Below are positions 2,670 through 53,702 of a stretch of 60,014 nt of DNA, piece after piece. Origin of the DNA: Candidatus Magasanikiibacteriota bacterium (GTDB lineage: Bacteria; Patescibacteriota; Patescibacteriia; Magasanikbacterales; 2-02-FULL-50-9b); assembly GCA_943355025.1 (NCBI GenBank), contig CALRDW010000001.1:1-60014 (forward strand), in the 5' to 3' direction. The notes beneath the pieces were generated by a model, which did not search any database, was not told where the DNA came from, and saw nothing but the letters and a program-made list of their open reading frames with translations. The position numbers and the translations under genes are program-made. Numbering within the stretch: the stretch's first letter is position 1; the number at the start of each line of letters is the position of its first letter.

Positions 2670-5030
2670 CTAATTGTAGAGGGGAGATGTAATCGCTGCT
2701 TGTTCAGCTGATGAGCTGAACTGATTTGAAGCAGTGACGTCTGCGCCAAACGTATAGTCACCGAAGAATGCATCTGAGATGTCGTCAATTTGTTTCGCCC
2801 ATGTGTTTCCATAGATTCCGCCAGCAACGGTTTCCGTTGTTACCCAGCGAAGAACACCTCCCTTGGTTACTGCGTAAACAAATTTACCCGTCGTAAATTT
2901 GACCATGCGTACACCTGGACGATACGTAACATTTTTTCCGAGACTGTATGATGCGAGTTGCGTGGTGCTGATTGTACGTACATCGGAGAAATCTTTGTAC
3001 CAGGTGAAGTAGATTTTTGAATTCGGGAATGCGTGGCGGTAGTTGTCAGAGCCAATAAAATATACAGCTCTGCATGAATCGTTTGATCCTGCATTTGCCG
3101 GGCACGCGTATTTTACCAACGAGCCAGGACCAATTGTTGAGTTAGGTGGTGTGACTGGGGCCGGAGATATGCTTGCAAGCGTAAAAGTCATAGGGAACGT
3201 CGCGATCGAGATCCCGTCGACTGTTGCAGTCAGTGTCGAATTTCCGACAGCGCTTGATTTAACATAGAAAACAGCCGAGCCAAGATCGCTCGTTGTGTTT
3301 CCGATGATTGTAATTGTATCAAGTCCTGGTCGCGATGAGAGCAGCTGAACACCTTTGTTTGGGAGCGGTTGTGCAAGGTTGTTTTTTATAACAACGGTAA
3401 CAATCGCTGAGGTGCTGTTGTCTGCGATTACGGTCGGCGTTGGTGAACTAATGAACGAATAAATTGCTGATGGAGTTGTGTTTGTTGGAGTAGGAGCAGG
3501 CGTTGGCGTTACTGCTGTGAGCGTTGAGGCAAAGTTTGACTCAGGACCAACGCTGTTGTTTCCAGCGTTATCAATGCACGATGCTTTGAGCATGTAGTTT
3601 TGAACACCGCTAAAACTTCGATTTACAATGTAATCATTGCTCGAAGCGTCATACACCATAGCACCAATCGCCGCGCCATTCACCAATAATGAACAGCTTG
3701 AAATGCCTGCAGCGTCGGTGACATGCGCATGAAGAGTTACAGCTGTATTAACTGTTCCAGACGTTGGTGTGACTGCTGAGACAGAAGGACCTGTGGTGTC
3801 AACGGTAAATACTACCATGGAGACAGCTCCAAGAAGGCTCACTTCGTCTGCGGCCTGAACCGAGAACGTGTGTGCGCCAGCGCTGAGGCCTGCGGGGATT
3901 TGGTAGCTTAGAAGAGTGCCATTATTGATTGTTGCATTGTTATCAATGCTTATCCAGTATGTAACGGGACCGACATTATCGGTTGCTGCGTTCCAGCTGA
4001 ATGCTGGTGTAATGTTGTTTGTAACTGATCCTGCAAAATTGCCGGCAAGACCTGCAATTACACCTGGTGCGGCACTGTCATAGACAGAGAGGCCGTCTGA
4101 TGAACTGAGAAACACGGCATTTGTTGCACCAGTCGGCACTGCAGCGCTCGTGTAGCCGACAGCGCTTGTTGGTGCGTCCATTTTGATCCAGCTTGAACCA
4201 CCATCGGTTGAGTATGATGCAACACCGTGTGTTCCAACGGTGATTACTTTGCTTGCAGATGGTTGGTAGATGCGGCGAAGCGAACCCCCGCTTAAACTGC
4301 TGGCATCAAGCTTCGTCCAGATGTGGCCAGCGTCAGTTGTTTTAAATACTGAAGGGACTGCAGAAACTGCATAACCAGTCGATCCAAACATGGAAACATC
4401 GGTAATTGTTTCCGTCAGATTTGTTACCGCGGCCCAATTCACGCCGTTATCATTTGTCCAATAGACAGAACTGCCTGCTGCAAGCATGCCGTTTTGTGTG
4501 TCTGTATATGAAAGCGCGGTAATACCGGAACCGCCGGCTGGTGAGCCGAGAAGATTCCACGTTGTACCATCCGTTGTTCGATAGAGATGACCGAGTGCTG
4601 TGCCAACGTATGCGTAGGTATCTCTAGCAACGGAGAGTGCTGAGGCGCTGCTGTTGTCGAGGGATGCGGTTGAAGTCCACGTAACACCACCGTCGGTTGA
4701 GCGGAGAATTCTACCGTTAGAAACGGACGCAAATGCGACCGAGTCTGAGTTACCAAATTGGATGTGTGTGATTTGTGTTCCGGTTCCGGAGCTTACGGAA
4801 TTCCAAGTTTTACCGCCGTCCGTCGTTCTGATTATATTTCCATTGTCTCCTGCTGCTAGACCAATCAAAGCAGAACCGAATGCAACATCTTGGAAGCTGT
4901 GCACTGAATCTTTAACTCCAATGCCTGCAGTCGGGCTCGGAGTTGCGTATACTGATGAAAATGGGGCGAGCGTAAGGGCTGCGGCAACGAGCCAGCGCGC
5001 CGTTGAATTCGTCCACGGTCGTTTTAACAT
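2670..5030 (-). CDS. Large secreted BNR-propeller/Ig-like surface protein
   Basis: This 786-residue protein has an N-terminal signal peptide ending near VYATPSP. The first 320 residues carry Asp-box/BNR-type repeats (TTDGGKTW, STDGGVTW, STDGGSSW), which form a beta-propeller of the YCF48/sialidase type. Ig-like domains follow (SVSAVTPTSGTVNTAV...), then a Pro/Thr linker (TPTPAPTPTNTTPS) and a Big_1-like domain. The last 150 residues form a domain with YFIGSDNYRHAFPN and TYRPGVRMVKFTT, a combination I associate with Patescibacteria surface proteins. The likely role is extracellular adhesion or surface display; no enzyme motif is seen. Confidence 0.8.
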   Translation of the reverse strand: MLKRPWTNSTARWLVAAALTLAPFSSVYATPSPTAGIGVKDSVHSFQDVAFGSALIGLAAGDNGNIIRTTDGGKTWNSVSSGTGTQITHIQFGNSDSVAFASVSNGRILRSTDGGVTWTSTASLDNSSASALSVARDTYAYVGTALGHLYRTTDGTTWNLLGSPAGGSGITALSYTDTQNGMLAAGSSVYWTNDNGVNWAAVTNLTETITDVSMFGSTGYAVSAVPSVFKTTDAGHIWTKLDASSLSGGSLRRIYQPSASKVITVGTHGVASYSTDGGSSWIKMDAPTSAVGYTSAAVPTGATNAVFLSSSDGLSVYDSAAPGVIAGLAGNFAGSVTNNITPAFSWNAATDNVGPVTYWISIDNNATINNGTLLSYQIPAGLSAGAHTFSVQAADEVSLLGAVSMVVFTVDTTGPSVSAVTPTSGTVNTAVTLHAHVTDAAGISSCSLLVNGAAIGAMVYDASSNDYIVNRSFSGVQNYMLKASCIDNAGNNSVGPESNFASTLTAVTPTPAPTPTNTTPSAIYSFISSPTPTVIADNSTSAIVTVVIKNNLAQPLPNKGVQLLSSRPGLDTITIIGNTTSDLGSAVFYVKSSAVGNSTLTATVDGISIATFPMTFTLASISPAPVTPPNSTIGPGSLVKYACPANAGSNDSCRAVYFIGSDNYRHAFPNSKIYFTWYKDFSDVRTISTTQLASYSLGKNVTYRPGVRMVKFTTGKFVYAVTKGGVLRWVTTETVAGGIYGNTWAKQIDDISDAFFGDYTFGADVTASNQFSSSAEQAAITSPLYN

Positions 5031-9199: not shown

Positions 9200-9228
9200 T
9201 TGACAAAAACAGGGAATTGTGCTATAGT
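9200..9228 (+). promoter_or_regulatory. Cassette A promoter, TTGACA-17-TATAGT
   Basis: Perfect -35 (9200-9205), 17-bp spacer and TATAGT (9223-9228) preceded by TGC. The start is expected near 9235. The 77-nt leader has small hairpins (CTTGT/ACAAG at 9262-9277; GCACA/TGTGC at 9286-9298) just ahead of a GAGG Shine-Dalgarno. Confidence 0.85.
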
Positions 9229-9311
9229 TTTTTGCTCGCAGGTGAGCCCGCAGTGGGTAATCTTGTTTGAGCACAAGAAGTGAGCGCACAAAATGTGCAG
9301 AGGAAAATGTC

Positions 9312-9884
9312 ATGAAAACTAGCGAAAAAACAGTCGCGGAAGACGTAACAAACGAAAATGAGGGCTGGAAGCCCGCCTATCCGAAACTCACTGTTTTGGC
9401 GGGTGTCCTGGTGACTGTTGCTGTGTTTTGGGGGTTTTGGGCTCTCCTGGAGAACCACGTGCGAACTTTGAAGGCTGCTGCGAGCGTGGAGAAAGCTCAG
9501 CTCGAAACGGTGCAGAAGGGTCTGCGTGCGGCCCACACCGCTAAAATGACGCAGTATCTCAAGCAATTTGAAAAACTCGATGCTGTCGATGACCTTCAAG
9601 AAGAAGATCTGAACGCTGTATTGCAGGAATTTTGCACGGTCGCTGCCGTGCACCGCAGCCAGCCAGTTGGGCGCTTCGTCTACTTTGTCGAATTGAACTA
9701 CTCTCTGGAATGCGCGCGTGCTGTCGCCGTTACGCGTTCATCGCACATGGCAAATCGTTACCAACCGTTTAACCAGGCACACAATTGCGAGGCCGCACAG
9801 CATGGAAAATTGCTGCGCGTGGTCTGCCACGGTTACAACTGGCCAAACGGTTTGATGCCACAAGAAAGAGCCAGAACAGAGTAA
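9312..9884 (+). CDS. Single-pass membrane protein, cassette A, unknown
   Basis: This 190-residue protein has an acidic cytoplasmic N-terminus (1-25), one transmembrane helix (LTVLAGVLVTVAVFWGFWAL) and an alpha-helical, coiled-coil-prone stretch (ENHVRTLKAAASVEKAQLE). A Cys-containing exported domain with four cysteines follows. I chose ATG 9312 because GAGG sits at proper spacing; the in-frame start at 9267 has none. It is the only gene between its own promoter and terminator. No homologous family is recognised. Its well-formed expression signals contrast with the neighbouring core genes. Confidence 0.75.
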   Translation: MKTSEKTVAEDVTNENEGWKPAYPKLTVLAGVLVTVAVFWGFWALLENHVRTLKAAASVEKAQLETVQKGLRAAHTAKMTQYLKQFEKLDAVDDLQEEDLNAVLQEFCTVAAVHRSQPVGRFVYFVELNYSLECARAVAVTRSSHMANRYQPFNQAHNCEAAQHGKLLRVVCHGYNWPNGLMPQERARTE

Positions 9885-9929
9885 CAGCGCTTGCTGTCCG
9901 TAATCCGTTACTCTGCCGCTCTGTTCCCG

Positions 9930-9963
9930 CCGACGTACCGCTTTCATGCTGCGTCGGTTTTTT
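9930..9963 (+). terminator. Cassette A terminator
   Basis: CCGACG (9930-9935) pairs with CGTCGG (9952-9957), followed by a T-run. It separates cassette A from the convergent lectin-like gene ending at 9968. Confidence 0.8.
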
Positions 9964-9967
9964 ATTT

Positions 9968-10756
9968 TTATAGCTGCTGCGCTACAATGTTTGATACTTG
10001 AACATTCGCATCTTCCGTGTAGAAGCCATATTGGCCGTCAGCAGTTAGCTGATCGTTGCCTGACATGGCGTAGGAAACATATTGTTTGCCATTGACTGTC
10101 ATGGTCACTACGTTGTTTTTTACGTTAAGCACAACGTTGTACGTGTCGTTGACTGGGAAAATATCTTGATTGAATGTAGAGGTGTAGAGGAAGTCCTGAG
10201 CATTATTCAAGAGGGATTCTCCCATTTCAACACCGTAGCCCTGCGGTTTCAAGACAATGTACTTGAATTTACCATCTGGTTTGTATCCGAAGAGTATCCA
10301 ACCAGTTTCCCACGGATTTGGTGTGGAACCTGTGCGAAGCTGCTGAATGGTTTTCATTGTGTAGCTCAATTGAAACGGTTGTTTGAGTGTTTGTGAACTC
10401 ACGACAAGTGAGGCGTGTGTTTCGCTCGGCTGTGTTGCGGCCTGTGGAGCCATGTTTAACTGTTGAAGCGCTGAGTTCCATGTAACAGAACCGTAACCAT
10501 CAAAAATTGTCGTTCCCCATGGGATTGATGTTGAAATTATGTTTGGCGCTGATGGCTGTGTTGGCGCCACTGGTAGGGGTGCTGGTGCCGGAGATGGATC
10601 CAGTGGGGCTGCCTCGGAGTTAGTTTTTTTATAAGAATGATGTGTCTTTGTGTTCTTTGAAGTTCTGGTAGCGCTTGTCTTTTCGGCTGCAAATGTAGGC
10701 GTCGCTGAAACGAGCAGCGCTGTTGCAATAGTGATTGTGGAGATTTTTTTCAACAT
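9968..10756 (-). CDS. Secreted lectin/glucanase-like (concanavalin-fold) protein
   Basis: A 262-residue protein with a clear signal peptide (to about TPTFA). A basic/Ser-Thr region and a proline-rich linker (PSPAPAPLPVAPTQPSAP) precede a C-terminal domain of about 180 residues. Its strand pattern (FQLSYTMKT..., GWILFGYKPDGKFKYIVLKP, YNVVLNVKNNVVTMTVNGK, GQYGFYTEDANVQVSNI) matches concanavalin A-like jelly rolls such as DUF1080 or laminin-G-like carbohydrate-binding domains. Sugar binding at the surface is likely; hydrolytic activity cannot be inferred. It is monocistronic. Confidence 0.7.
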   Translation of the reverse strand: MLKKISTITIATALLVSATPTFAAEKTSATRTSKNTKTHHSYKKTNSEAAPLDPSPAPAPLPVAPTQPSAPNIISTSIPWGTTIFDGYGSVTWNSALQQLNMAPQAATQPSETHASLVVSSQTLKQPFQLSYTMKTIQQLRTGSTPNPWETGWILFGYKPDGKFKYIVLKPQGYGVEMGESLLNNAQDFLYTSTFNQDIFPVNDTYNVVLNVKNNVVTMTVNGKQYVSYAMSGNDQLTADGQYGFYTEDANVQVSNIVAQQL

Positions 10757-10779
10757 ATTGAATATGAGAAATTAATTAA

Positions 10780-10917
10780 GCACTGAGTTTGTTGTATAGG
10801 CCGTACTGTTATATACGGAAAAAAGAGACAAAAGGTTTCAAAACTAATTGAAGTTTTGCACAGCTTGAGCATTTTGACACTGGTTGGGGCTCAAAGGAAC
10901 ATTCTATAACTCAGTGC
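10780..10917. repeat. Branched palindrome with outer stem and three arms
   Basis: A perfect 10-bp outer repeat (GCACTGAGTT 10780-10789 with AACTCAGTGC 10908-10917) encloses three hairpins. These are CCGTA/TACGG (801-805/814-818 of 10 kb), CAAAACT/AGTTTTG (839-845/852-858) and TTGAGC/GCTCAA (865-870/889-894). It fills the gap between the lectin-like gene and the cassette B promoter. No ORF is supported. It may be an RNA element, part of a divergent regulatory region or an insertion remnant. Confidence 0.5.
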
Positions 10918-10924
10918 ACCACCA

Positions 10925-10953
10925 TTGACAACGCCGCTGTTTTATGATATAAA
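10925..10953 (+). promoter_or_regulatory. Cassette B promoter, TTGACA-17-TATAAA
   Basis: The -35 (10925-10930) and -10 (10948-10953) boxes have 17-bp spacing. The start near 10960 is immediately followed by a long leader hairpin. Confidence 0.8.
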
Positions 10954-10962
10954 TGATGGTTC

Positions 10963-11026
10963 GAATTGGTGAGTGCGCTGCACATTGAGGTGTTTAGCGC
11001 TCTCGCCAATTCAACAACCAGGCGAG
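10963..11026 (+). promoter_or_regulatory. Cassette B leader with alternative hairpins
   Basis: A 17-bp stem (10963-10979 with 10996-11012; one G-T pair, one mismatch) forms at the 5' end. Part of its right arm, CTCGCC (11002-11007), can instead pair with GGCGAG (11021-11026), which abuts the GGGAGGG Shine-Dalgarno. The two structures are mutually exclusive, as in translational switches. No ligand or protein is implied. Confidence 0.45.
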
Positions 11027-11039
11027 GGAGGGTCTGTCC

Positions 11040-11768
11040 ATGAATGGTATTTTGGGGTTTCTGATGATTTTGTTTGTCGTAAGCGCGTGCGGCGCAGTAC
11101 GAGTTAAGGAAGAAGCAAAAAAGGAAACTAAGAGTCTGTTCCGACCCGACCAGCTTGCTGAGATGCAGTTGGTGGTCGAGTCCCTGCAGGCCTATGAAAA
11201 AAAAGTCATTGGCGCGCTGTGGAATGAGAACGAGAAGATTCACATCTCAGCTGAAGAAGCTTGCGTGCAGTACAAAGTCGCCGTGAAACGATGTGGCCAC
11301 GGATTTCGTCCCGACCATGCTCTTGCTGACTCCGAGAATCAATGGTGTGAGGATCAGGCCGCGGAGCTTCTTGCGAAAATTCAAAATTGGGCAGAGCGTA
11401 AGCTTCGATTGTGCGCCGCCATGCGTGCTGCTTACGAAAAGCGGTTTGAGATGGGTAAGCCGCTTGTTGCGCTCTTGCTCATGGAAAATTCGGCACATGT
11501 GCGATACCGCGCGACGATGCTTAGTGACGGCTATGAGGTTGGTGTAGAACTCAGGCCGCTTTACGCGACCTACGATATCTACGATATCGGCTTCATCTTG
11601 GACACTAAAGTGTCTAAACTGCCACATGACTCCTATCAGCGCGCTTTGCTGATCAAGGAAGTTGAAAAGGATTGGCGCGCTGTAAACCACGCGGCGATCG
11701 AGACAGCTGATTATGTGGGCGCGCTGAAGTTTGAAGCGGACGCTCCGAAGGTTATTACGCTGTTCTAA
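11040..11768 (+). CDS. Lipoprotein, cassette B, unknown
   Basis: A 242-residue protein. The short signal MNGILGFLMILFVVSACG has a lipobox (VSAC), so it should be a membrane-anchored lipoprotein facing outward. The mature part is alpha-helical and charged with four scattered cysteines. A region around residues 145-185 (AHVRYRATMLSDGYEVGVEL...YDIYDIGFILD) is more beta-like. The Shine-Dalgarno GGGAGGG lies 7 nt before the ATG. Promoter, leader hairpin and terminator are private to this gene. No family is recognised. Confidence 0.75.
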   Translation: MNGILGFLMILFVVSACGAVRVKEEAKKETKSLFRPDQLAEMQLVVESLQAYEKKVIGALWNENEKIHISAEEACVQYKVAVKRCGHGFRPDHALADSENQWCEDQAAELLAKIQNWAERKLRLCAAMRAAYEKRFEMGKPLVALLLMENSAHVRYRATMLSDGYEVGVELRPLYATYDIYDIGFILDTKVSKLPHDSYQRALLIKEVEKDWRAVNHAAIETADYVGALKFEADAPKVITLF

Positions 11769-11810
11769 TAAAACCCACGTTGTACACAGAAAAATCAACA
11801 ACAAATTAAG

Positions 11811-11857
11811 GGCCCCGTCACCACAGTGAAATATATGTGGTCGCGGGGTCGTTTTTT
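11811..11857 (+). terminator. Cassette B terminator
   Basis: GGCCCCG/CGGGGTC with an inner ACCACA/TGTGGT stem, followed by a T-run. Its 3' arm (11835-11850) is identical over 16 nt to that of the terminator at 19032-19080. Confidence 0.85.
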
Positions 11858-11910
11858 ATATCAAGAGCTATTAAAATTACTTATTTTTAGCTAAATATTC
11901 AGGGCCAGCA

Positions 11911-11939
11911 TTGACAAAACCGCCAATATGTGGTATGCT
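11911..11939 (+). promoter_or_regulatory. Cassette C promoter, TTGACA-17-TATGCT
   Basis: The -35 (11911-11916) and -10 (11934-11939, preceded by TGG) boxes have 17-bp spacing. A 6-bp hairpin CTTGGC/GCCAAG (11947-11952/11960-11965) begins right at the expected start. Confidence 0.8.
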
Positions 11940-12007
11940 TTTTTGTCTTGGCAAACTCTGCCAAGCGACCAGTTTCTTTCAAACGATCCATTACTCAAGG
12001 AGTTCCC

Positions 12008-12676
12008 ATGAAAGCGTTTACACGGATTTTGGTCCTATTTATGCTGGCCTTGGCACTTGTGCCGGCGTGCGTTGCTGAAAATCAGCCGGAAGTGTCGGTG
12101 ATCGACGAATCTGGAATTACGGCCGTGAGCCCAGATCAAATTGAACTGGTGTTCAACGTCAAATACACCGCGGCGGATCGGGCAAAACTTGCCGTCGTGC
12201 CGTTCAGCAAAGAGGATCTGATCGCTGCGCGCAATCAGAACTTCGTTCTCGTGGCCGGGTATCCGATTACGCTTGCAGAAATGCATGCGGCAAAAACGTT
12301 TATCAATGAGGACTACGATGAATTTATTCGTTACCTCACTGAACCGTTAGCTAAAGAGCCGGTTGGAGTACGCTGGTTTCTGATTCGGAAAGGGCTATTG
12401 TCTTGGTCAGAGCATGCGCCGTATGCGGAACAATCCGCCTTGGTTCCTCATGGTGAGCAGATTCCGCCGACGCGTGACATTGTGTTTGCGACATTGGCGT
12501 TGTATCTCACAACGGGTGAGCGGATGCTGGGCAACAGAATGGCGAGTTCAAGCGACCTAAGCCCTGCATATGGGCGGACGTTTGTTGGCCTCTCTGGAAA
12601 CAAGGTTTTCATTGACTTTGAACCGAACGATGAGGGACACCTGGGCATGGGCGTGCTCACAACCATCGAGCCTTGA
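12008..12676 (+). CDS. Exported protein, probable lipoprotein, cassette C, unknown
   Basis: This 222-residue protein starts at ATG 12008 with AAGGAG 5-6 nt upstream. An N-terminal hydrophobic signal ends LALVPAC, which could be a lipobox (Cys about 20), although Pro at -2 is unusual. The mature part begins acidic and reads as a mixed alpha/beta domain (ELVFNVKYTAADRAKLAVVPF ... KVFIDFEPNDEGHLGMG). No catalytic motif or family is recognised. It is a single-gene unit between its own promoter and terminator; a longer frame from 11930 would start inside the promoter. Confidence 0.75.
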   Translation: MKAFTRILVLFMLALALVPACVAENQPEVSVIDESGITAVSPDQIELVFNVKYTAADRAKLAVVPFSKEDLIAARNQNFVLVAGYPITLAEMHAAKTFINEDYDEFIRYLTEPLAKEPVGVRWFLIRKGLLSWSEHAPYAEQSALVPHGEQIPPTRDIVFATLALYLTTGERMLGNRMASSSDLSPAYGRTFVGLSGNKVFIDFEPNDEGHLGMGVLTTIEP

Positions 12677-12703
12677 TCCGCGTCGTGGTTATACAACCAC
12701 AAA

Positions 12704-12741
12704 CTTCTTCGCTAGCTGCAAAGCTGGCGGAGAGTTTTTTT
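12704..12741 (+). terminator. Cassette C terminator
   Basis: CTTCTTCGCTAGCT pairs with AGCTGGCGGAGAG around a GCAA loop and is followed by a T-run. A separate 6-bp hairpin (GTGGTT/AACCAC, 12685-12700) precedes it. Confidence 0.85.
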
Positions 12742-12806
12742 ATTTAATTCTTTTTAAGAAAATTATTTTAGGTGAGATACTACCCCAAAGTTGACCAAGG
12801 TGAGAG

Positions 12807-12835
12807 TTGACAAAAGCGCTGTTTTGTTGTATAGT
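12807..12835 (+). promoter_or_regulatory. Cassette D/E promoter, TTGACA-17-TATAGT
   Basis: The -35 (12807-12812) and -10 (12830-12835) boxes are perfectly spaced. A CCTGC/GCAGG hairpin (12843-12857) starts within 1-2 nt of the predicted transcription start. Confidence 0.85.
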
Positions 12836-12913
12836 ATTCAGTCCTGCAAAAAGCAGGCAACTGCATTATTTAGAGAACCTTAACAATAAAACAATAAGGA
12901 ATTGGGGGGTATA

Positions 12914-13588
12914 ATGGCGCATTATTATCGAGTGATGATTTTTGGACAAAATGTTAGATTGAATAAGCTTTCGCAAATGGCAGACTATGCTTTTGCTGCA
13001 GAGATTTACTCTGATCCTGAATCACAGTGGCCAGGCCACGAGCGTGTACTATTCGATTGGGCGCAGGTTCCTGATGACCTTACCGTCGCGGGCGGGAGTA
13101 TCAGATACGCTGTCTATCTCATGTATCGTGATACAGTCATTCGGCGATTCACGAATGTAGAAGATTTACGGTATTATGGTTGGCAACAGCTTAATCCGAA
13201 TGCTGCAGCGATTGTGGAAATTGAATCCAGGCTGGTTATGTACCGTGCACGTTTTCGCGAGGTCAGCAATAGCGAAGGGGATTTTCGTGATTATCGCGTC
13301 CGCACATTTCAGTTTGATCCGCAGCGTGGGTGCCTGAGTTGTATGTTGCCTGAGTTACTTGACGGGTTTCGCGTCGTGTACGTTCCACGGATGGGCAGCC
13401 GTCTGTGTGTAGCCGTGGAGCCGGGCGTTCCATATGCCTGCAGATTTTCGCATGTCTGCATTGAGCATCTGCCAAAGGCTGAACGACCAGGTTTCCAGCT
13501 GATCGAGGTGATCGTGCAGCATGAACATTTTGATCCAGTCGCGAAGATCGCATGGTTGCAGGCACAAATTGCTGCGGGTAATCCGTAG
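12914..13588 (+). CDS. Soluble protein, cassette D, unknown
   Basis: A 224-residue protein without a signal peptide or membrane helix, so probably cytoplasmic. The sequence is rich in aromatic and Arg residues (MAHYYRVMIFGQNVRLNKL, YRARFREVSNSEGDFRDYRV). Five cysteines sit in the C-terminal half, including CLSC and CRFSHVC spacing that might bind metal. I chose ATG 12914, preceded by a G-run and AAGGA; a TTG at 12902 would add four residues. It is the first gene of a two-gene unit with the next ORF 12 bp downstream. No family is recognised. Confidence 0.7.
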   Translation: MAHYYRVMIFGQNVRLNKLSQMADYAFAAEIYSDPESQWPGHERVLFDWAQVPDDLTVAGGSIRYAVYLMYRDTVIRRFTNVEDLRYYGWQQLNPNAAAIVEIESRLVMYRARFREVSNSEGDFRDYRVRTFQFDPQRGCLSCMLPELLDGFRVVYVPRMGSRLCVAVEPGVPYACRFSHVCIEHLPKAERPGFQLIEVIVQHEHFDPVAKIAWLQAQIAAGNP

Positions 13589-13600
13589 TGGAGGAATTCA

Positions 13601-14128
13601 ATGCTCTTTAATCCTGTCACAAGAGGTGCTCATCGGTCACTGAGCCGAATTGAGGCATACGGATGTATCATCGTAGTGATGATATCTGCAGGTGTTTGGA
13701 AATATCAGGCTGATGCGCCGGCACGCGCTGAGGAGGCACGGCTCGCTGCTTTTGGAAAATCTCCGGAGTGGGTTGAAGCCACACGTCCAGATCTTCGGCT
13801 CATCTCGTCAGAATTTTTTAGCGGGTCAGGCACACTGCTTGTTGAAAATCATTCAGGCTCGTGTCGAACGATGCGCGAATTGATTTCTGAAGCCGCAAAA
13901 ATCCGCGGGTACAAAGCGGGACACCGGTTCCTGGTTGGTACTCCACCGGATGACGTGCTTGAACGCGTTTTGGAGCGCGGTGGACTCGACTTCGGTCGTT
14001 GTCGCGTCTTGGTTTGGACGGGGAGGGCGTCCACTGGAGACCCCGACCAATCATTGGTTGAAATTGCGGACTGCGATTTCTTTCCAATGACACGTTGCAT
14101 CAGCCACACAGAACTGTTGGGCTGGTAA
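13601..14128 (+). CDS. Single-pass membrane protein, cassette E, unknown
   Basis: This 175-residue protein is preceded by GGAGG 6 nt before its ATG. One transmembrane helix (IEAYGCIIVVMISAGVWKY) is followed by an exported or peripheral domain. That domain has four cysteines and an alpha/beta pattern (GTLLVENHSGSCRTMRELISEAAK, RCRVLVWTGRA). It is co-transcribed with the gene at 12914 and shares its terminator. The pairing of a soluble Cys-rich partner with a membrane partner hints at a complex, but this is inference only. Confidence 0.7.
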   Translation: MLFNPVTRGAHRSLSRIEAYGCIIVVMISAGVWKYQADAPARAEEARLAAFGKSPEWVEATRPDLRLISSEFFSGSGTLLVENHSGSCRTMRELISEAAKIRGYKAGHRFLVGTPPDDVLERVLERGGLDFGRCRVLVWTGRASTGDPDQSLVEIADCDFFPMTRCISHTELLGW

Positions 14129-14134
14129 GTAATT

Positions 14135-14193
14135 GCACCCTGCCTTTAATGGCAATTTTGATCACGACGTGATTGAAAGGGTGCTATTTTTTT
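14135..14193 (+). terminator. Cassette D/E terminator, branched
   Basis: The outer stem GCACCCT/AGGGTGC (14135-14141/14178-14184) encloses two smaller hairpins and is followed by a T-rich run. Confidence 0.75.
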
Positions 14194-14225: not shown

Positions 14226-16169
14226 ATGTTTGGCGAAAAAACTTTTTTCGGTGCACCGAAAACTCCAGAACAACTTGATACACAACTACAAAGTGTTCAG
14301 AAACAGTTAGGTCATGAGCCAGAGGTATCTCTGGTGCCTGCGTCTGTTGAGCGTGAAAAAATTTTACAGATGCCCGTGATCGAGTTGCAGGAAAAATACA
14401 CTCGTCGTTTTCAGGCGTATTTTGAATTACTGCGCCAAGAAAATAACCCTGATTTTGTAAGTCGAGATAAATTGACAGCAGATTTTAAAAAATGGTTGAT
14501 TGCGCTCAATTCGTTGGATGTGTATGTTAAAAAACATCATGCTGGAGTTGACGTCACACTCCGTGGCAAGCAGATCGATGTTTTCGATGATCTACACAAT
14601 TTTTTGGAAGCAGGTGGTACAGCTGGATATATAAAATTGCCGACAGGTGTTGGTAAAACGGTTCTGTTTACGGAATTGATCGAGGCGTTGGATTTAAAAA
14701 CGCTGATTGTTGTGCCGACAAATATTTTAATTGATCAGACGGTTGATAAAGCAGAGCAATTTGCGCCGGATATTGAGGTCGGTGTTATTAATCGGACGGC
14801 AAAACAGTATTATAGAAAAGTGACGGTTACGACGTATGCATCACTTGCGCGTCAGGTTGCGCAGGGGCTTATCAAGCCGGAGGAGTTTGAGTGTTTAATT
14901 TTGGATGAAGCGCACGAGGCGCTCAGCGACGCGCGTCAAAAATTAGTGCGAAAGTTTTCAAATGCCGCGAAGATTGGTTTCACCGCGACGCCTACGTTTT
15001 CCGCGGAAAAACAGCTCAGTGATTTATTGCCAACGTGCATTCATTCAATGGAAACACGCGAGGCAGTTGAGAAAGGTTTGCTCTGTTCAGTATCTGCTGT
15101 GGTTGCGAAAACGTCCGTGAATTTATCTAAAGTTCCGAAAAATGCCATGGGAGATTATAGCGAATCTGAGCTCGCATATGCAGTGAATATAGCAAGTCGA
15201 AATAAGGCTGCAGCGCTCCTTTATAAAGAAGTATTTAGCGGTGAGCAAGCTATTGTGTTTTGCGTAGGTATAACGCATGCGCGCGAGGTTGCGCGAGTGT
15301 TTCGCGAGGAAGGTGTTGCTGCTGCATTCATCAGTGGCGAAACCACGAAAGACGAGCGGATTCGGCTGCTCGCAGAGTTTAATCGTGGTGAAATAAAAGT
15401 TTTGTGTAATGCGGATTTATTAACTCGCGGTTTTGATGAGCCGCGAGCAAGTGTATGTTTGAATTTGCGGCCAACATTGTCTTTAGTTATGGCTGAACAA
15501 CGCGGTGGACGTGTGCTCCGATTGGATCCTGATCGACCTGACAAGCACGCGACAGTTGTTGATTTTGTTGATCAATCTGACAGTATTGATGAGTTGCAGG
15601 CAACTGGCCAGGTATTGTTTGCGAAAATCTTGGGCGGTGCGTTTGTTGTGGCCGCTGCGAGCGGTGGGAGGTCTTGGGATTCTGGCGGCCGGCCGGGGCA
15701 TGGAGGTGGGTTTGTTGTTAAAAAACCAAATATTTACATACCAGGGCTTGAGGTATTTTTTGATACTGAAGAAGTGCTCCGTATTGTCGGAAAGGTTGAA
15801 GAAGTCAAAATAGAGAAGAGCCGACTTATTTTGGATTTGGAGGACTTGAAGAAACTGGTGCGACTTGCCAAAGTACAGAGCCAAGTAGAATATTTAGAAA
15901 AACGAGTCAATAATCCAAGTTGGCCACATAGTCCGGATCGATTAGAAGGCTGGGTCAACTGGAATGATTTTTTGGGAAAAACGAGTGTTGAGACGATTAG
16001 TGAATTAGCGGTTCTGCAGCTTGCTGTGCGTGTGGCACACGTTCGAAACAGGTTTGAATATGAGGCGCAGCGGGAAACTCATCCTGCGTGGCCCGGTCGG
16101 CCGGATTATTTGGCCGGTTGGACGAATTGGTTCGATTTTTTGGGAAAAAAGAAGCGTGATCGGCGATAG
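14226..16169 (+). CDS. SF2 DEAH-box helicase with C-terminal W-rich repeats
   Basis: A 647-residue protein. An N-terminal helical region (1-115) precedes a RecA-like core with motif I LPTGVGKT, motif II DEAH (LDEAHEAL), motif III FTATPT and motif VI QRGGRVLR, so ATP-dependent nucleic-acid translocation is expected. A glycine-rich linker (GGRSWDSGGRPGHGGG) follows the core. The tail holds two tandem units sharing the pattern P.WP..PD.L.GW.NW.DFLGK (about 560-590 and 615-645). These resemble the short W/FLG repeats attached to some phage integrases and helicases. It lacks restriction or methylase partners here, so a repair or defence role is open. Confidence 0.85.
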   Translation: MFGEKTFFGAPKTPEQLDTQLQSVQKQLGHEPEVSLVPASVEREKILQMPVIELQEKYTRRFQAYFELLRQENNPDFVSRDKLTADFKKWLIALNSLDVYVKKHHAGVDVTLRGKQIDVFDDLHNFLEAGGTAGYIKLPTGVGKTVLFTELIEALDLKTLIVVPTNILIDQTVDKAEQFAPDIEVGVINRTAKQYYRKVTVTTYASLARQVAQGLIKPEEFECLILDEAHEALSDARQKLVRKFSNAAKIGFTATPTFSAEKQLSDLLPTCIHSMETREAVEKGLLCSVSAVVAKTSVNLSKVPKNAMGDYSESELAYAVNIASRNKAAALLYKEVFSGEQAIVFCVGITHAREVARVFREEGVAAAFISGETTKDERIRLLAEFNRGEIKVLCNADLLTRGFDEPRASVCLNLRPTLSLVMAEQRGGRVLRLDPDRPDKHATVVDFVDQSDSIDELQATGQVLFAKILGGAFVVAAASGGRSWDSGGRPGHGGGFVVKKPNIYIPGLEVFFDTEEVLRIVGKVEEVKIEKSRLILDLEDLKKLVRLAKVQSQVEYLEKRVNNPSWPHSPDRLEGWVNWNDFLGKTSVETISELAVLQLAVRVAHVRNRFEYEAQRETHPAWPGRPDYLAGWTNWFDFLGKKKRDRR

Positions 16170-17061: not shown

Positions 17062-17328
17062 ATGAAGGACAAAATCATTTTTTCTGAAACGCTCTCTGGT
17101 TTGACGCCAAAAAAATTAGAAGGATTTTTTGTTGGTTGGCCAAAAAAACCATCATCAAAAACACTTCTGACATTGCTCAGAAAAAGTGATTATCGAATTA
17201 TAGCTCGGAATAGTAATGGGCGCGTGGTAGGTTTTATTACTGCAATTAGCGATAGCACGCTTGCCGCGAAGAGAACGAAAAAGTCTCCCTTTCGGAGAGG
17301 CTCATTCATGGCGGGGCGTAGTGGATGA
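17062..17328 (+). pseudogene. Truncated GNAT acetyltransferase
   Basis: Residues 1-60 (LEGFFVGWPKKPSSKTLLTLL, SDYRIIARNSNGRVVGFITAISD) match the N-terminal half of a GNAT-fold acetyltransferase. The protein then departs into a basic tail (KRTKKSPFRRGSFMAGRSG). The acetyl-CoA loop (Q/RxxGxG/A) and the rest of the fold are missing, and I could not find them in the other frames downstream. A small hairpin (TCTCC/GGAGA) sits at the break. It is probably a decayed gene truncated by deletion next to the toxin-antitoxin pair. Confidence 0.65.
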
Positions 17329-17369
17329 AGTTGGGAGGTGTTTTCGAACTGGTCAGCATGTCCAGTTTA

Positions 17370-17378
17370 TGCTATAAT
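17370..17378 (+). promoter_or_regulatory. Extended -10 promoter of the toxin-antitoxin pair
   Basis: TGC-TATAAT ends 6 nt before the ATG at 17385. The predicted transcription start coincides with the start codon, giving a leaderless mRNA. Confidence 0.7.
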
Positions 17379-17384
17379 CGCTTC

Positions 17385-17624
17385 ATGTTAACAGCAATAC
17401 GCGTGCCAAAATCAATTATTCCAGTGCTTTGGGACGTGCCGAATCCTGCGAAAATTGATATCAAAAAATATCAAAATTTTATTATTGCGCGCGTTGCAGA
17501 AAAGGGTGGATGGACGGATGTACAATGGCTCAAAAAAACGTATGGCGTTGCAGCGATTCGTCGCGTGGTTGCTCGCAGTAAAAATGTTGGGAAGAAAACT
17601 AAGAATTTTTGGAAGATTGTATGA
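17385..17624 (+). CDS. Antitoxin-like protein (DUF6922-type), partner of AbiEii
   Basis: A 79-residue protein with LWDVPNPAKIDIKKYQNFIIARVAEKG followed by WTDVQWLKKTYG and RRVVARSKNVGKKTKNFWKI. It matches the short helical proteins that precede AbiEii-type nucleotidyltransferases. In such pairs it is the presumed antitoxin or regulator. ATG 17385 fits the leaderless promoter; a start at 17325 would lie upstream of it. The stop codon overlaps the toxin start (ATGA), implying translational coupling. Confidence 0.75.
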   Translation: MLTAIRVPKSIIPVLWDVPNPAKIDIKKYQNFIIARVAEKGGWTDVQWLKKTYGVAAIRRVVARSKNVGKKTKNFWKIV

Positions 17625-18244
17625 TGCATGAAACTGCATTAAATTCGGCGACAAGAAGTGTATTTGAGAAATTACGACACGCTTCATTTTTGAAAAAATT
17701 TTATTTAGCAGGTGGCACCGCGCTTGCGTTGCAGTATGGTCATCGTGAGTCAGTGGACTTAGATTTTTTTTGTGCGAAGCCGTTTAAAACAGAAACGCTC
17801 ATTGCTGCAATTTCAAAGCTGGGAAAATTTAAGTTGGTGAATGAAGAAGAAAATACTGTTGATGGCGTGCTCGACGGAGTTAAGGTGAGTTTTTTTACAT
17901 ATCCATATAAACTATTGCGCAAGACAAAAATGTTTGAAGGTGTTGCTGTTGCCAGCGTTGTAGATATTGCGTGCATGAAAATCAATGCGATCGCAGGGCG
18001 CAATGCACGTAAGGATTTTGTGGATCTGTATTTTATTTTGGATCATGAAGGATGGCGCGTTGAAGATGTGCTGCATCTGTGCAATAAAAAATTTGGTGCA
18101 GGTGCACGGGATCCTTATCATATTTTGAAAGCGTTGGTGTTTTTTGAAGAGGCTGATGGGCAGCCAGAGGTGGCGAGTAAACCTATTGTCAAATGGATAA
18201 GGGTGAAGAAATTTTTTGTGAATGAGGTTGAGGGAATACAGTAA
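17621..18244 (+). CDS. AbiEii/AbiGii-type nucleotidyltransferase toxin
   Basis: A 207-residue protein. The nucleotidyltransferase-fold signature AGGTALALQ...HRESVDLDFF (residues about 28-48) carries the paired acidic metal ligands (DLD). Later motifs KVSFFTYPY, ASVVDIACMKINAIAGR and KDFVDLYFIL complete the usual AbiEii set. Family knowledge: these enzymes transfer nucleotides, often to tRNA ends, in abortive-infection or type IV toxin-antitoxin systems. The ATGA overlap with the upstream gene fixes the start at 17621. A mobile or defence function is likely. Confidence 0.85.
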   Translation: MMHETALNSATRSVFEKLRHASFLKKFYLAGGTALALQYGHRESVDLDFFCAKPFKTETLIAAISKLGKFKLVNEEENTVDGVLDGVKVSFFTYPYKLLRKTKMFEGVAVASVVDIACMKINAIAGRNARKDFVDLYFILDHEGWRVEDVLHLCNKKFGAGARDPYHILKALVFFEEADGQPEVASKPIVKWIRVKKFFVNEVEGIQ

Positions 18245-18325
18245 TGTGAAGGATATTTTTTAGCGTAGTTTTGGGGAAAAATATTATTTTTTTGCTTAAA
18301 TTAGCTAAATAATGCTAAATTAGGG

Positions 18326-18354
18326 TTGACAGAGTCAGCTTTTTGTGTTATAGT
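18326..18354 (+). promoter_or_regulatory. Cassette F promoter, TTGACA-17-TATAGT
   Basis: Perfect boxes at 18326-18331 and 18349-18354. The sequence TTAGCTAAATA lies 15-25 nt upstream and also occurs upstream of the cassette C promoter (around 11886-11897). The leader begins with CCAG/CTGG pairing. Confidence 0.85.
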
Positions 18355-18426: not shown

Positions 18427-18975
18427 ATGGAACTCAAACGTAAAGTTATAGGTCTCTTCGTCGATGGCGTTTTGTTTGATGGATTTGAAAAGGGGTTCGA
18501 CAAAAATGCCAATAAGTTATTTGCAGGTAAGTACGATTACGTGCAAATGTTACCAGGAGCGTTGGATTCTGTGAAACTTCTTATTGAGAAAGGGTGGGAG
18601 GTCCATTTGCTTGTTTGTACTTTTAAGCGCGATCTGCCATATTGGCGGGCAGTTACGAAATGGGCAAAGCACAATGGATTTTTTGGTGAAGGCTTGCTTA
18701 AGCCGAAACAGATTCACTGTATGACCTATGCAGCCTTGCCGCGTTATGCAAAGCGCCTCAAATTCATCAAGGTGTACATGACATTTCCTGAACAGCACTA
18801 TTGTTTCACACTCCACGGCTTCTCTCAGATTCCCAGCCATCCTTTTGGTCAAATTAGTCCAGCTGGATGTCTCAAAGACCATGTTGCGTTTCAAAAGATG
18901 GTGTATAGCAATGAGGATTTTGAAGCTAGGGCAGCTCTTGTTGATGGCGACAAGTTTTGGGATGAAGCTGTCTAG
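18427..18975 (+). CDS. HAD-like protein with degenerate motif I, cassette F
   Basis: A 182-residue soluble protein. The N-terminus VIGLFVDGVLFDGF aligns with the HAD motif DxDGVL, but the nucleophilic first Asp is Phe. A motif II-like Thr (VHLLVCTFK) and the preceding helix PGALDSVKLLIEKGW resemble 5'(3')-deoxyribonucleotidase-type HAD proteins. Without the nucleophile, phosphatase activity is unlikely, so a binding role is possible. AAGGAG is 7 nt before the ATG. It is a single-gene unit with its own promoter and terminator. Fold assignment is tentative. Confidence 0.6.
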   Translation: MELKRKVIGLFVDGVLFDGFEKGFDKNANKLFAGKYDYVQMLPGALDSVKLLIEKGWEVHLLVCTFKRDLPYWRAVTKWAKHNGFFGEGLLKPKQIHCMTYAALPRYAKRLKFIKVYMTFPEQHYCFTLHGFSQIPSHPFGQISPAGCLKDHVAFQKMVYSNEDFEARAALVDGDKFWDEAV

Positions 18976-19031: not shown

Positions 19032-19080
19032 GACCCCATGATTACATCTGAACAGATGTGGTCGCGGGGTCATTTTTTTT
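19032..19080 (+). terminator. Cassette F terminator
   Basis: GACCCC/GGGGTC outer pairs and an ACATCT/AGATGT inner stem, then eight T residues. Its 3' arm (19056-19071) repeats 16 nt of the cassette B terminator. Confidence 0.9.
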
Positions 19081-45540: not shown

Positions 45541-46131
45541 ATGTTTACGGGAATTATTACGGAAGTTGGTGAAATCATTGATGCTCGCGATGAACAGGGG
45601 TGGCGAGTTGTACAGGTGAGCGGACCAAAAACAGCTGCGCGAGTTCTCCGTGGTTCGAGTGTTGCAATAAATGGTGTGTGTTTGACTGTTCAAACAATAG
45701 CCGAGAATGGCAGCATGCAATTTTCAATTTTGCCGCAGACCCTTGCTGTAACACTGATCAGTAATTGGCAACCGGGTACAAAAGTTAATTTAGAAAATGC
45801 GCTTCGTGTTGGCGACGAACTCGGTGGCCATTTTGTATATGGCCACGTCGACGGCACAGCAACTGTTGTAGCAGTTACACAGGAGGGTGAATCCACGCGC
45901 ATTCGTATGACGCTTCCACCCGAACTCCATAAATTTACGGCGCCTAGAGGATCTATTTCGATAAATGGAACAAGCCTTACAATAGCGGAACGTGGCGATG
46001 CATATATTGAAGTCGCACTTGTTGCATACACACTTTTAAATACAACATTGGGGGAATTGAAGGTTGGTGACGCTGTGCATGTCGAGTGTGATATGCTTTT
46101 AAAATTTATTGCGCAGGCGGCTGTGCATTGA
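45541..46131 (+). CDS. ribE: Riboflavin synthase alpha subunit
   Basis: A 196-residue protein with two tandem lumazine-binding barrels: MFTGIITEVGEI, then VAINGVCLTV in the first; GHFVYGHVDGTATV, then SISINGTSLTIA in the second. It dismutates two 6,7-dimethyl-8-ribityllumazine molecules to riboflavin. No other rib genes are nearby. The stop codon overlaps the TTGACA of the next promoter. Confidence 0.9.
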   Translation: MFTGIITEVGEIIDARDEQGWRVVQVSGPKTAARVLRGSSVAINGVCLTVQTIAENGSMQFSILPQTLAVTLISNWQPGTKVNLENALRVGDELGGHFVYGHVDGTATVVAVTQEGESTRIRMTLPPELHKFTAPRGSISINGTSLTIAERGDAYIEVALVAYTLLNTTLGELKVGDAVHVECDMLLKFIAQAAVH

Positions 46132-46156
46132 CAAAAAGCGCTCCAAATGCTAGTGT
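46128..46156 (+). promoter_or_regulatory. Cassette G/H promoter, TTGACA-17-TAGTGT
   Basis: The -35 box (46128-46133) contains the ribE stop codon TGA; after a 17-bp spacer comes TAGTGT (46151-46156). The leader is short (about 19 nt) and contains GAGGTG. Confidence 0.65.
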
Positions 46157-46181: not shown

Positions 46182-46514
46182 ATGTGGCTCATTGATATCT
46201 TTAGAGAGTGGTCAAAAAAGAAGTCTGGACGCAATAAACGGCAGCCTTTTACGTACGAAGCCGTGTTGCTGGCGCTTGAAAAAGCGGGTGGTATGCGGAT
46301 TGAGCTTGAGCTGCGCGAAGAGCTCGGATATTACGAGGTGAGCCCTGTGTGCGACCACGTTGTTGCACGCTTGGCGAGTCGCGGGCACATTAAAATTGTT
46401 TCGCACTTTGTCGCCGGCGAGTCGATGGTGTCTCGTGCGCTTCAAATCACAGACTGTGGGCGTACCACGCTCGATACTGAGCATATGAGGAATTATCGAT
46501 GCAAGTCGAATTAA
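46182..46514 (+). CDS. Small winged-helix-like protein, cassette G
   Basis: A 110-residue soluble basic protein. ATG 46182 has GAGGTG 5 nt upstream. Residues 25-95 have a winged helix-turn-helix rhythm: FTYEAVLLALEKAGGMRI, PVCDHVVARLASRGHIKIV as recognition-helix region, then a wing ending in ALQITDCGRTTLD. It could be a DNA-binding regulator of its own unit. This is a fold-level guess. It overlaps the next gene by 16 bp. Confidence 0.6.
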   Translation: MWLIDIFREWSKKKSGRNKRQPFTYEAVLLALEKAGGMRIELELREELGYYEVSPVCDHVVARLASRGHIKIVSHFVAGESMVSRALQITDCGRTTLDTEHMRNYRCKSN

Positions 46515-47092
46515 ATGCCGCGGTTACGACTGTTGCGACGAGCGATGACGAGGTGCTCTTGCTCAAAGCGGCGGCGATTGTTCTTGAAAAGATGAAAGGA
46601 GCGAAGGATCACGGCAACTTTGGATTCAGCATCATCCTTCATGGACAGCAGGACTCAGGCAAATTTTCCGCACATACAGGGGCCGGCGGTAATGTGAGTA
46701 TCGATTCAGGTCCGGATACAAAGAAAACACGTGTGTTTTCAAACGTGACCCCTGAGCGCGTTGGTCAGTGGCGCGTGTGGCGTGAAGTCGATTCCATTCT
46801 GGTTCAGAATTTTCAGGACTACAAACGCGACCAGGAACAAATTTCGGCATCGATGCGCCCATATAGGTGTATCAAATTTGATCAGCGAACGTTTGACATC
46901 GTCGACGTCAGCCAGATCGAGTTTCCTGAGGAATTGACGATGAGGCTGTTCTTTATTACGTTTCGCGGAAGTTCCGTTGAGTACCTGACGGGACCGAATA
47001 AAGGGTTTGTTGATGAGGAAACTGTTTTCCCACGACTGATCGCTCTGCGGAATTGGTGGCGTAGTCTGTGGAATCGCGATAAGAAGAAGTAA
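46499..47092 (+). CDS. Soluble protein, cassette H, unknown
   Basis: A 197-residue protein with no signal peptide or membrane helix. The middle part looks beta-rich (FGFSIILHGQQDSGKFSAHT, GGNVSIDSGPDTKKTRVFSNV) and the C-terminus is helical and basic (LIALRNWWRSLWNRDKKK). AGGA lies before ATG 46499, and the start is inside the preceding gene, so translation is coupled. No family is recognised. It shares a terminator with cassette G. Confidence 0.65.
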   Translation: MQVELNAAVTTVATSDDEVLLLKAAAIVLEKMKGAKDHGNFGFSIILHGQQDSGKFSAHTGAGGNVSIDSGPDTKKTRVFSNVTPERVGQWRVWREVDSILVQNFQDYKRDQEQISASMRPYRCIKFDQRTFDIVDVSQIEFPEELTMRLFFITFRGSSVEYLTGPNKGFVDEETVFPRLIALRNWWRSLWNRDKKK

Positions 47093-47115: not shown

Positions 47116-47150
47116 TGCCGGCAATTCCTTTGAGAATCGTCGGCATTTTT
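47116..47150 (+). terminator. Cassette G/H terminator
   Basis: TGCCG/CGGCA with inner ATTC/GAAT pairs and a T5 tail. Confidence 0.8.
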
Positions 47151-47203
47151 ATTTTCAACAGGATTCCAAAGTTTAGTAACTAGTCCAATACATTAGTTCA
47201 ACA

Positions 47204-47362
47204 TATACCCAAAGAAATTATTTGTGCTGTTCGTGGTACGTGTCGATTTTCTCAGCAGAAAATCGCACTCATTCTCGGTGCTGCTCGTCCGCGTTTACGC
47301 GGACACTGACCCGCAGCACCTCCGAGAGCCCCCTCGCAGCACAAATAATTTCTTTGGGTATA
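47204..47362. repeat. Long branched palindrome: 26-bp outer stem, two arms
   Basis: A perfect 26-bp inverted repeat (47204-47229 with 47337-47362) encloses two complex hairpins. Arm one has a 9-bp perfect stem (47244-47252/47257-47265) extended by GTG/CAC. Arm two has an 8-bp outer stem GGTGCTGC/GCAGCACC (47277-47284/47313-47320) and a 7-bp inner stem GTCCGCG/CGCGGAC (47287-47293/47298-47304). No gene is supported. It resembles the element at 123-229 in plan but not in sequence. Confidence 0.85.
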
Positions 47363-47478
47363 CCTCCATTCGCGTGTTATTCTACTCCCATACTTCCTAA
47401 TCCTTTTGAAAAACCTCTTATAGAGCTTTTGGAGGATTGCGGTGCAAGCTCTGCCGTTGGGTAAAATTGATGATTTTT
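47363..47478. other. Short intergenic remainder with a possible leaderless ORF
   Basis: After the palindrome a TATTCT-like box (about 47378) is followed by ATACTTCCTAATCC, which could be read as a 24-residue peptide (LPNPFEKPLIELLEDCG...) ending at 47464. There is no ATG, GTG or TTG at the right place, so it is not called as a gene. Confidence 0.25.
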
Positions 47479-52972: not shown

Positions 52973-53001
52973 TTGACAAAATAGCACAAATGTGCTATAG
53001 T
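52973..53001 (+). promoter_or_regulatory. Cassette I promoter with palindromic spacer
   Basis: TTGACA (52973-52978), 17 bp, TATAGT (52996-53001). The spacer holds TAGCACA-AA-TGTGCTA (52982-52997), a perfect 7-bp dyad overlapping the -10 box, as an operator would. A related dyad GCACA-AAA-TGTGC is in the cassette A leader (9286-9298). Confidence 0.75.
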
Positions 53002-53037: not shown

Positions 53038-53571
53038 GTGCTAAAGTTCAATAAAATTGCGGCTATCTGGGTGGCGGTACTGCCCGTGCTTTACTTGGCC
53101 GTGCAGATTGGATTTTTGTGTTTGGGGGCAGCCGTTTTTGCGTCGGTCGCATATCTCGCGGTTCCACGAATGTTGTTTATGTTCATTCTGGCGCCCGCTG
53201 TGGTTGTGTTAGTAGCATGGGCTGAGTGCATCTGGAAAGACCACTTTGGCGAGGTTTACACATGGGATTTTCCAGAGTGGAAGCGCGCCGTGGTGTTCAT
53301 AGTCGCCGGGCTTGTCAGCATGTGGCTGACGTTCTGTGTAAAGCAGGTGTTTTTTAAAGGCTCTGTCGTGCTCAACGACCACGTGACTTTTACTGGCTAC
53401 ACTCTTATTTTGGCCATAGTCTATGTTGGCGTTGAGTGTGGAAGCAGCGCGCTGGTGATCGATCGGAATATCGGTCGTTGGCGCAACTGGCTCGGCTATT
53501 ATGGCCAGCAGCCGTCGCCGGACCGGTGGCGCGCGATCAAAGAAATTCTTCGTGGTCGGGCTGAGCACTAA
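53038..53571 (+). CDS. Four-helix membrane protein, cassette I, unknown
   Basis: A 177-residue protein starting at GTG 53038 with GGAGGG 5 nt upstream. There are four predicted membrane helices (VAVLPVLYLAVQIGFLCLG; MFMFILAPAVVVLVAW-type; AVVFIVAGLVSMWLTFC; GYTLILAIVYVGVEC) and a basic cytoplasmic tail (RWRNWLGYYGQQPSPDRW). No family is recognised. With its promoter and terminator it is inserted between murG and murE. Confidence 0.7.
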   Translation: MLKFNKIAAIWVAVLPVLYLAVQIGFLCLGAAVFASVAYLAVPRMLFMFILAPAVVVLVAWAECIWKDHFGEVYTWDFPEWKRAVVFIVAGLVSMWLTFCVKQVFFKGSVVLNDHVTFTGYTLILAIVYVGVECGSSALVIDRNIGRWRNWLGYYGQQPSPDRWRAIKEILRGRAEH

Positions 53572-53594
53572 GATGCGCGTCCGCTCTGAGCAAG

Positions 53595-53641
53595 GCGATT
53601 CGGTGGTTTGTGGAAACACAACTACCTGAGTCGCTTTTTTA
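53595..53641 (+). terminator. Cassette I terminator
   Basis: A long stem from GCGA (53595-53598) to TCGC (53631-53634), with internal pairs to a GTG-GAAA-CAC tip, then T6. Confidence 0.8.
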
Positions 53642-53654
53642 TTTAACGAGGGAC

Positions 53655-53682: not shown

Positions 53683-53702
53683 GATGCAGTTCAAGTTCGT
53701 TT

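Follow-up and report, generated by a model that had tools for sequence, protein, structure and literature searches.

Probable self-contained transcription units carrying mostly orphan genes in a reduced Candidatus Magasanikiibacteriota genome

Seven self-contained gene units, designated A, B, C, D/E, F, G/H, and I, were identified in the first 60 kb (hereafter, the window) of contig C1 (~131-132 kb) from a Candidatus Magasanikiibacteriota genome of 0.99 Mb and 98% completeness. We consider it probable that each is transcribed autonomously and that the class serves accessory proteins, mostly orphans and in many cases exported or membrane-bound, with turnover by gain, loss, and fast divergence in place. 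The single plan that a first-pass annotation of the window had ascribed to the seven was found in all of them: TTGACA followed by a spacer of exactly 17 bp was confirmed at each promoter, and every unit is closed by its own hairpin and T-run terminator (Table 1). Specifically, the -10 box was exactly TATAGT in A, D, F, and I, TATAAA in B, and TATGCT in C, with the TAGTGT of G/H being picked up only at two mismatches, and every promoter except that of D/E had a TGn extension. The nine open reading frames (ORFs), spanning 110-242 amino acids (aa), were assigned starts according to their Shine-Dalgarno (SD) sequences, which were weak in D (a G run at -4, with AAGGA further upstream) and in G (GAGGTG). 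The terminators of B and F had 30 bp in common at 93%.

Searches with the promoter pattern, using the reversed pattern as control, established the units as a genome-wide and family-wide class that exceeds chance expectation. At one mismatch or fewer, the whole genome contained 96 matches to the promoter, versus 11 in the control. Across the six genomes of the family, namely our own (G000) and five sisters (G001-G005), TTGACA-17-TANNNT followed by 28-58 nt, GGAG, and a start codon gave 97 matches versus a single control match, and a version with TATRVT and RGGAG was found in 24 of 57 relatives, again with no control matches. About 20 additional units were located in the genome beyond those of the window. 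Five further units lie on C1 (67118, 68122, 68757, 82112, and 99920). A private terminator was present in 80 of the 91 units examined.

The proteins encoded by the units are largely without recognized families, as had been proposed for the window, where none of the nine ORFs reached a Pfam cut-off (matches to Pfam and TIGR02249 were judged at the model cut-off). F was not seen to be a broken HAD-like protein in the Pfam search, where it had no match. On C1 as a whole, including the five further SD-bearing unit genes, 0/15 unit proteins had a Pfam family versus 13/19 random control genes of the same size (Fisher p=4e-5). Off C1, 3 of about 18 matched, to a helicase, an AstE-like enzyme, and a Cys-rich repeat lipoprotein, and in sister genomes the matches (5/20) comprised NUDIX twice, a nucleoside phosphorylase, an NDP-hexose dehydratase, and a PemK-like toxin. 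No convincing relative was found for B in 56 genomes of the order, for F in 85, or for I in 56, where the single weak match was a fragment with stops. Likewise, B, D, and F had no relatives among viral contigs, nor did D and F among genome contigs, in scans that reach close relatives only. None of the nine unit proteins matched a PADLOC model, only the neighboring AbiEii did, and an identity as known anti-phage defense genes was rejected on this ground.

Signal peptides, lipoboxes, and transmembrane (TM) segments were called by inspection and confirmed the earlier count of five apparently exported or membrane-bound proteins among the nine (A, B, C, E, and I), features that suggest a role at the cell surface. 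The Cys richness first seen in several of them was also borne out, at 1.7% in units versus 0.9% in core genes of the same size (p=0.001). Moreover, GC content at third codon positions (GC3) was 0.54 in unit genes versus 0.41 (p=7e-8), and the unit genes fit core codons worse (codon adaptation, p=1e-7). The GC3 shift was repeated in G001-G004, the sample from G005 being too small. High expression is not supported as its cause, because the AT-richness of the core extends to those core genes for which good expression would be expected (GC3 of 0.38 for rpsO, 0.40 for rpsT, and 0.39 for atpD).

The start regions of core genes were surveyed without selection on the whole of C1 (131 kb). Here, a strict SD preceded the first ATG in 3 of 128 non-unit genes, which confirms the first-pass annotation's claim that core genes lack this signal. 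When any early start was allowed, eight non-unit genes had an SD, five of which proved to be further units. Strong -10 hexamers peaked 5-14 nt before core ATGs, in contrast to a complete absence 0-24 nt before 1500 internal ATGs, and because of this crowding we read many core mRNAs as probably leaderless. A -10 directly before the ATG and no SD characterized a subset of core genes. The companion claim that core genes also lack -35 boxes held only in part, several core promoters carrying a fair -35.

Upstream of the SD, the leaders of the units tend to fold. For 71 leaders from the family and order, folding energy was below that of dinucleotide shuffles (mean z -1.63, standard error 0.19), z being less than -2 in 26 of them, and pairing usually began within ~10 nt of the end of the -10 box, that is, at the mRNA 5′ end. 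The stem sequences varied between units, and Rfam models matched only tRNAs in the window and no known RNA element in the leaders. In stabilizing leaders of the ompA type, the mRNA starts with a hairpin, and an exposed SD follows downstream. The unit leaders resemble these in their order of hairpin and SD, but differ in that the stem changes freely from unit to unit and any stabilizing effect is putative; by analogy, the hairpin may act in 5′-end protection or SD insulation. Additionally, TTAGCTAAAT was seen at three places in 302 kb, each time 24-25 bp ahead of the -35 box of a unit (C, F, and C5:46448), which is only suggestive of a tie to unit promoters, as the 302 kb had been picked around promoters. 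GTTCTTT, a boxA-like sequence, was observed near the transcription start in unit leaders of several relatives (L104, L113, L114, L095, and L085).

Comparison with the sister genomes exposed units that were present or absent between conserved neighbors, gene order near MurG, Era, RibE, and MurF being kept across the family. The position of I, between MurG and tRNA-Lys, was empty in G002, G004, and G005, and in G001 it was occupied by a different unit of two genes, complete with a promoter, hairpin, SD, and terminator of its own and without detectable similarity to I. Likewise, the gap between RibE and Era, which holds G/H in the window, was 138 bp in G004, contained only a repeat in G003, and in G002 harbored a different small unit whose ORF had no detectable similarity to G. 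The gap between Era and o48662 was near-empty in G001 and G002; in G003 it held one unit, and in G005 one on the reverse strand. Between IF3 and w20717, a unit was present in G005 and none in the window, and the gap of F (AbiEii/tRNA-Asp) had as its counterpart a different unit beside tRNA-Asp in G003. The A-E cluster is excluded from this comparison because its candidate anchor, a helicase gene at 14226-16169, has no clear ortholog in the family.

The atpG/atpD gap behaved differently: a small lipoprotein unit, oriented opposite to these genes, was present there in our genome, G002, G003, and G004. The flanking ATP synthase gene ends were nearly identical, the promoter was recognizable, and the long leader hairpin was kept with changed stems, but the lipoproteins were barely alignable past the lipobox (z 9.9 between our genome and G003). 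Some orphans, at least, are therefore old loci that diverge very fast, and a unit pair (L098/L099) was also conserved in one genus. Fixed positions, which the first-pass annotation had named as evidence against its own reading, were thus seen at one locus, atpG/atpD, where a unit with a hypervariable protein keeps its place in four genomes. The distinct accessory class that the annotation had favored is supported by presence/absence differences at conserved neighbors and by a composition unlike that of the core, and the units appear to be an accessory gene class, some members of which were not recently acquired.

We also pursued the relationship of the units to known mobile elements. Searches for an integron integrase (TIGR02249) returned only sub-cutoff Xer-like matches, at one place per genome. 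The 80 unit terminator regions compared had little in common beyond the T-run, except for B/F and one G003 pair read by eye, no PHROG of known function was matched by unit proteins, and no donor copy of the tested proteins (B, D, F, and I) was found in the viral or genome contigs and order genomes searched. Consequently, the suggestion that the units are portable and were acquired as such was not borne out in the form of a recombination site, integrase, or donor copy. Like integron cassettes, the units are numerous and look mobile, and each carries a small orphan gene and ends in an inverted-repeat structure; however, they are scattered, in both orientations, have their own promoters, and lack a common attC-like end, and an identity as integron cassettes was rejected. 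No link to a phage or viral source emerged either. The units also resemble phage morons, which likewise consist of one or two genes with their own promoter and terminator, lie between conserved genes, have atypical composition and accessory functions, and bring non-homologous cargo to the same place. At MurG/tRNA-Lys and RibE/Era, the units indeed lie between genes that are adjacent in relatives. Unlike morons, they reside in a reduced chromosome rather than a phage or prophage, with MurG, MurF, Era, RibE, ATP synthase, and IF3 as neighbors, and have a folded leader and SD that core genes lack. By analogy, the units would behave like morons without a phage, that is, autonomous, insertable, and accessory.

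Several observations weigh against our interpretation. Units outside C1 and in relatives were located via promoter and SD, which makes these two features a product of selection in their statistics. The bare promoter also precedes a tRNA gene (C6:16435), rpsT (C6:56440), and rpsO (C24:6250); of the signals that would argue against a special class if common among housekeeping genes, it is therefore the promoter that is shared, whereas core genes seldom have leader, SD, and terminator together. Known families do occur in units (3 of ~33 in this genome and 5 of 20 in relatives). The excess of folding in the leaders is a mean value, and ~40% of leaders have z above -1. The stable position of the atpG/atpD unit across four family genomes means that accessory does not always equate to recently gained.

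We weighed these data against other explanations. It is unlikely, in our assessment, that there is no special class and the units simply show ordinary monocistronic architecture, in which any single gene outside operons has a promoter, SD, and terminator and orphans merely happen to be single. The promoter is of a general sigma-70 type and is also used by a tRNA gene, rpsT, and rpsO, and the same pattern surrounds sequences in other genomes of the phylum (G104, G124, and G171) that we take to be CIRCE-like, a type known from heat-shock operons. Yet first-of-operon core genes on C1 mostly have a -10 beside the ATG and no SD, the five further SD-bearing genes on C1 again turned out to be orphans, and unit composition is strongly different from that of the core.

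The compositional difference also counts against the idea that the units are surface-protein loci of long vertical descent, shaped by diversifying selection, their orphan status reflecting fast divergence and their absence from sisters reflecting loss. The atpG/atpD unit and the L098/L099 pair fit this idea well, but the ORFs that share a gap, G versus that of G002 and I versus those of G001, have no detectable similarity, and several sites are wholly empty, so that we regard it as possible, with the balance leaning against it. Empty sites, non-homologous units in the same conserved gaps, and units beside tRNA genes speak for a lateral origin of the cassettes, signals included, in a single mobile pool, be it plasmid, phage, or recombinase-driven, as a non-phage counterpart of morons. 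To this we assign somewhat less than an even chance: the GC3 offset common to the tested genomes and cargo such as NUDIX, PemK, and PNP argue for it, whereas the missing integrase, shared end, and informative PHROG, the tested proteins without relatives in viral or other genome contigs, and the vertical persistence of the atpG/atpD unit argue against it. Under our preferred reading of autonomous accessory units, lateral gain may have contributed, and whole-unit gain or loss and hypervariable evolution in place are likely both at work.

Other features were observed near units or at comparable positions. A dispersed repeat of ~250 bp contains a long self-complementary hairpin (ACTCAAA...TTTGAGTATA), the stem of which differs from copy to copy; after it, proteins of a paralogous family (MLPNPFEKPLPKLEDTDPLKNE...) begin. 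TTTTCAACAGGATT, present after H, at C7:44219, and at other terminators, was rejected as a shared insertion site, being part of a separate repeat and paralogue family found away from units too. GC-rich palindromic hairpins (TTCGAC...CTCGCTCG) with changing stems were located upstream of tRNA-Lys in the window (53690-53850) and in the same gap in L170 and L172. The reverse-strand unit of G005 (L173, about 640-2190) is bordered on both sides by a ~38-bp hairpin core (TTCGCTTTTGCACGAGAGGCCAGCAACGTGCACGCGAA), the two copies having opposite orientation and different outer stems. Two units of G003 (L171 6110-6920 and L221 ~3260-3340) have unrelated ORFs and terminators that are nearly the same (CACCCAACCCAATGCTG...GGGTGCGATTTTTTT), as was also seen with B and F. 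Finally, the AbiEii-type toxin gene and its upstream partner (window 17325-18244) were 81-83% identical in G003, where they are also near tRNA-Asp, and were conserved better than Era.

Table 1. Features of the units and associated elements. Positions are those of the window unless a contig is given; ORF starts are those reset to the SD.
Feature	Position	Strand	Details
Unit A promoter	9200-9228	+	TTGACA-17-TATAGT with TGn
Unit A leader	9229-9311	+	Hairpins; SD GAGGA
Unit A ORF	9312-9884	+	190 aa; single N-proximal TM segment; only a weak sub-cutoff T2SSM/DUF4381 match
Unit A terminator	9930-9969	+	Intrinsic
Unit B promoter	10925-10953	+	TTGACA-17-TATAAA with TGn
Unit B leader	10954-11039	+	Very stable 5′ hairpin (z -5.7); SD GGAGG
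Unit B ORF	11040-11768	+	242 aa; lipoprotein-like
Unit B terminator	11810-11859	+	Shares 30 bp with F terminator
TTAGCTAAAT motif	11887-11896	+	24 bp upstream of C -35; candidate UP-element or operator
Unit C promoter	11911-11939	+	TTGACA-17-TATGCT with TGn
Unit C leader	11940-12007	+	5′ hairpin; SD AAGGAG
Unit C ORF	12008-12676	+	222 aa; signal peptide/lipoprotein-like
Unit C terminator	12705-12744	+	
Unit D/E promoter	12807-12835	+	TTGACA-17-TATAGT
Unit D/E leader	12836-12913	+	5′ hairpin CCTGC..GCAGG; SD weak
Unit D ORF	12914-13588	+	224 aa
Unit E ORF	13601-14128	+	175 aa; SD GGAGG; N-terminal TM segment
Unit D/E terminator	14135-14193	+	
TTAGCTAAAT motif	18301-18310	+	25 bp upstream of F -35
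Unit F promoter	18326-18354	+	TTGACA-17-TATAGT with TGn
Unit F ORF	18427-18975	+	182 aa; SD TAAGGAG
Unit F terminator	19032-19080	+	
Unit G/H promoter	46128-46156	+	TTGACA-17-TAGTGT with TGn
Unit G ORF	46182-46514	+	110 aa
Unit H ORF	46499-47092	+	197 aa
Unit G/H terminator	47116-47155	+	Dispersed repeat directly after
Unit I promoter	52973-53001	+	TTGACA-17-TATAGT with TGn
Unit I ORF	53038-53571	+	177 aa; GTG start; polytopic membrane protein
Unit I terminator	53592-53643	+	Immediately upstream of tRNA-Lys promoter
Dispersed ~250-bp repeat	47152-47430		Degenerate copy
Dispersed ~250-bp repeat, copies outside window	C7 ~43.5 kb, C25 ~1.6 kb, C23 ~3.5 kb, C2 ~83.5 kb, C3 ~70.4 kb, C6 ~16.7 kb		Loci L057, L078, L076, L034, L041, L053
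atpG/atpD hypervariable small lipoprotein gene	G000 C1:97165-97944 (outside window)	opposite	Loci L081, L109, L110, L197

In the mechanism we propose, the housekeeping sigma factor would read each unit from a near-consensus, often extended -10, promoter, a short leader would fold into a 5′ hairpin and then expose the SD, and transcription would stop at the private hairpin and T-run. Judged by the consensus boxes, expression may be strong. Because its own signals would make it independent of neighbors, such a unit could fit almost any gap between operons without disturbing the flanks, and units could turn over quickly via gain, loss, and very fast divergence in place. Core genes, by comparison, would mostly use promoters with the -10 close to the ATG or lie within operons without an SD. 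A broader proposal, which we consider rather unlikely, is that the family operates two expression modes, a leaderless, SD-free one for the core and a leadered, hairpin-capped, SD-driven one for hypervariable accessory proteins that form a mobile pool of higher GC content, perhaps co-regulated or favored by ribosomes under some condition.

Leaderless and SD-led initiation coexist within one genome in mycobacteria and others (PMC4633059, PMC3160421). The situation here is alike in having two initiation modes, but differs in that leadered initiation with an SD seems to be restricted for the most part to the accessory orphan units, and we found no report of such a split between core and accessory genes for this phylum in the open-access literature. 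If true, the split would provide a natural test case for the division of labor between translation start modes. Moreover, genes without a known function are numerous in reduced genomes of this kind, and only a few of the organisms are culturable. The unit signature appears to pick out accessory, fast-changing, and largely surface-exposed genes, and may thus furnish a shortlist of candidates for host contact or phage escape.

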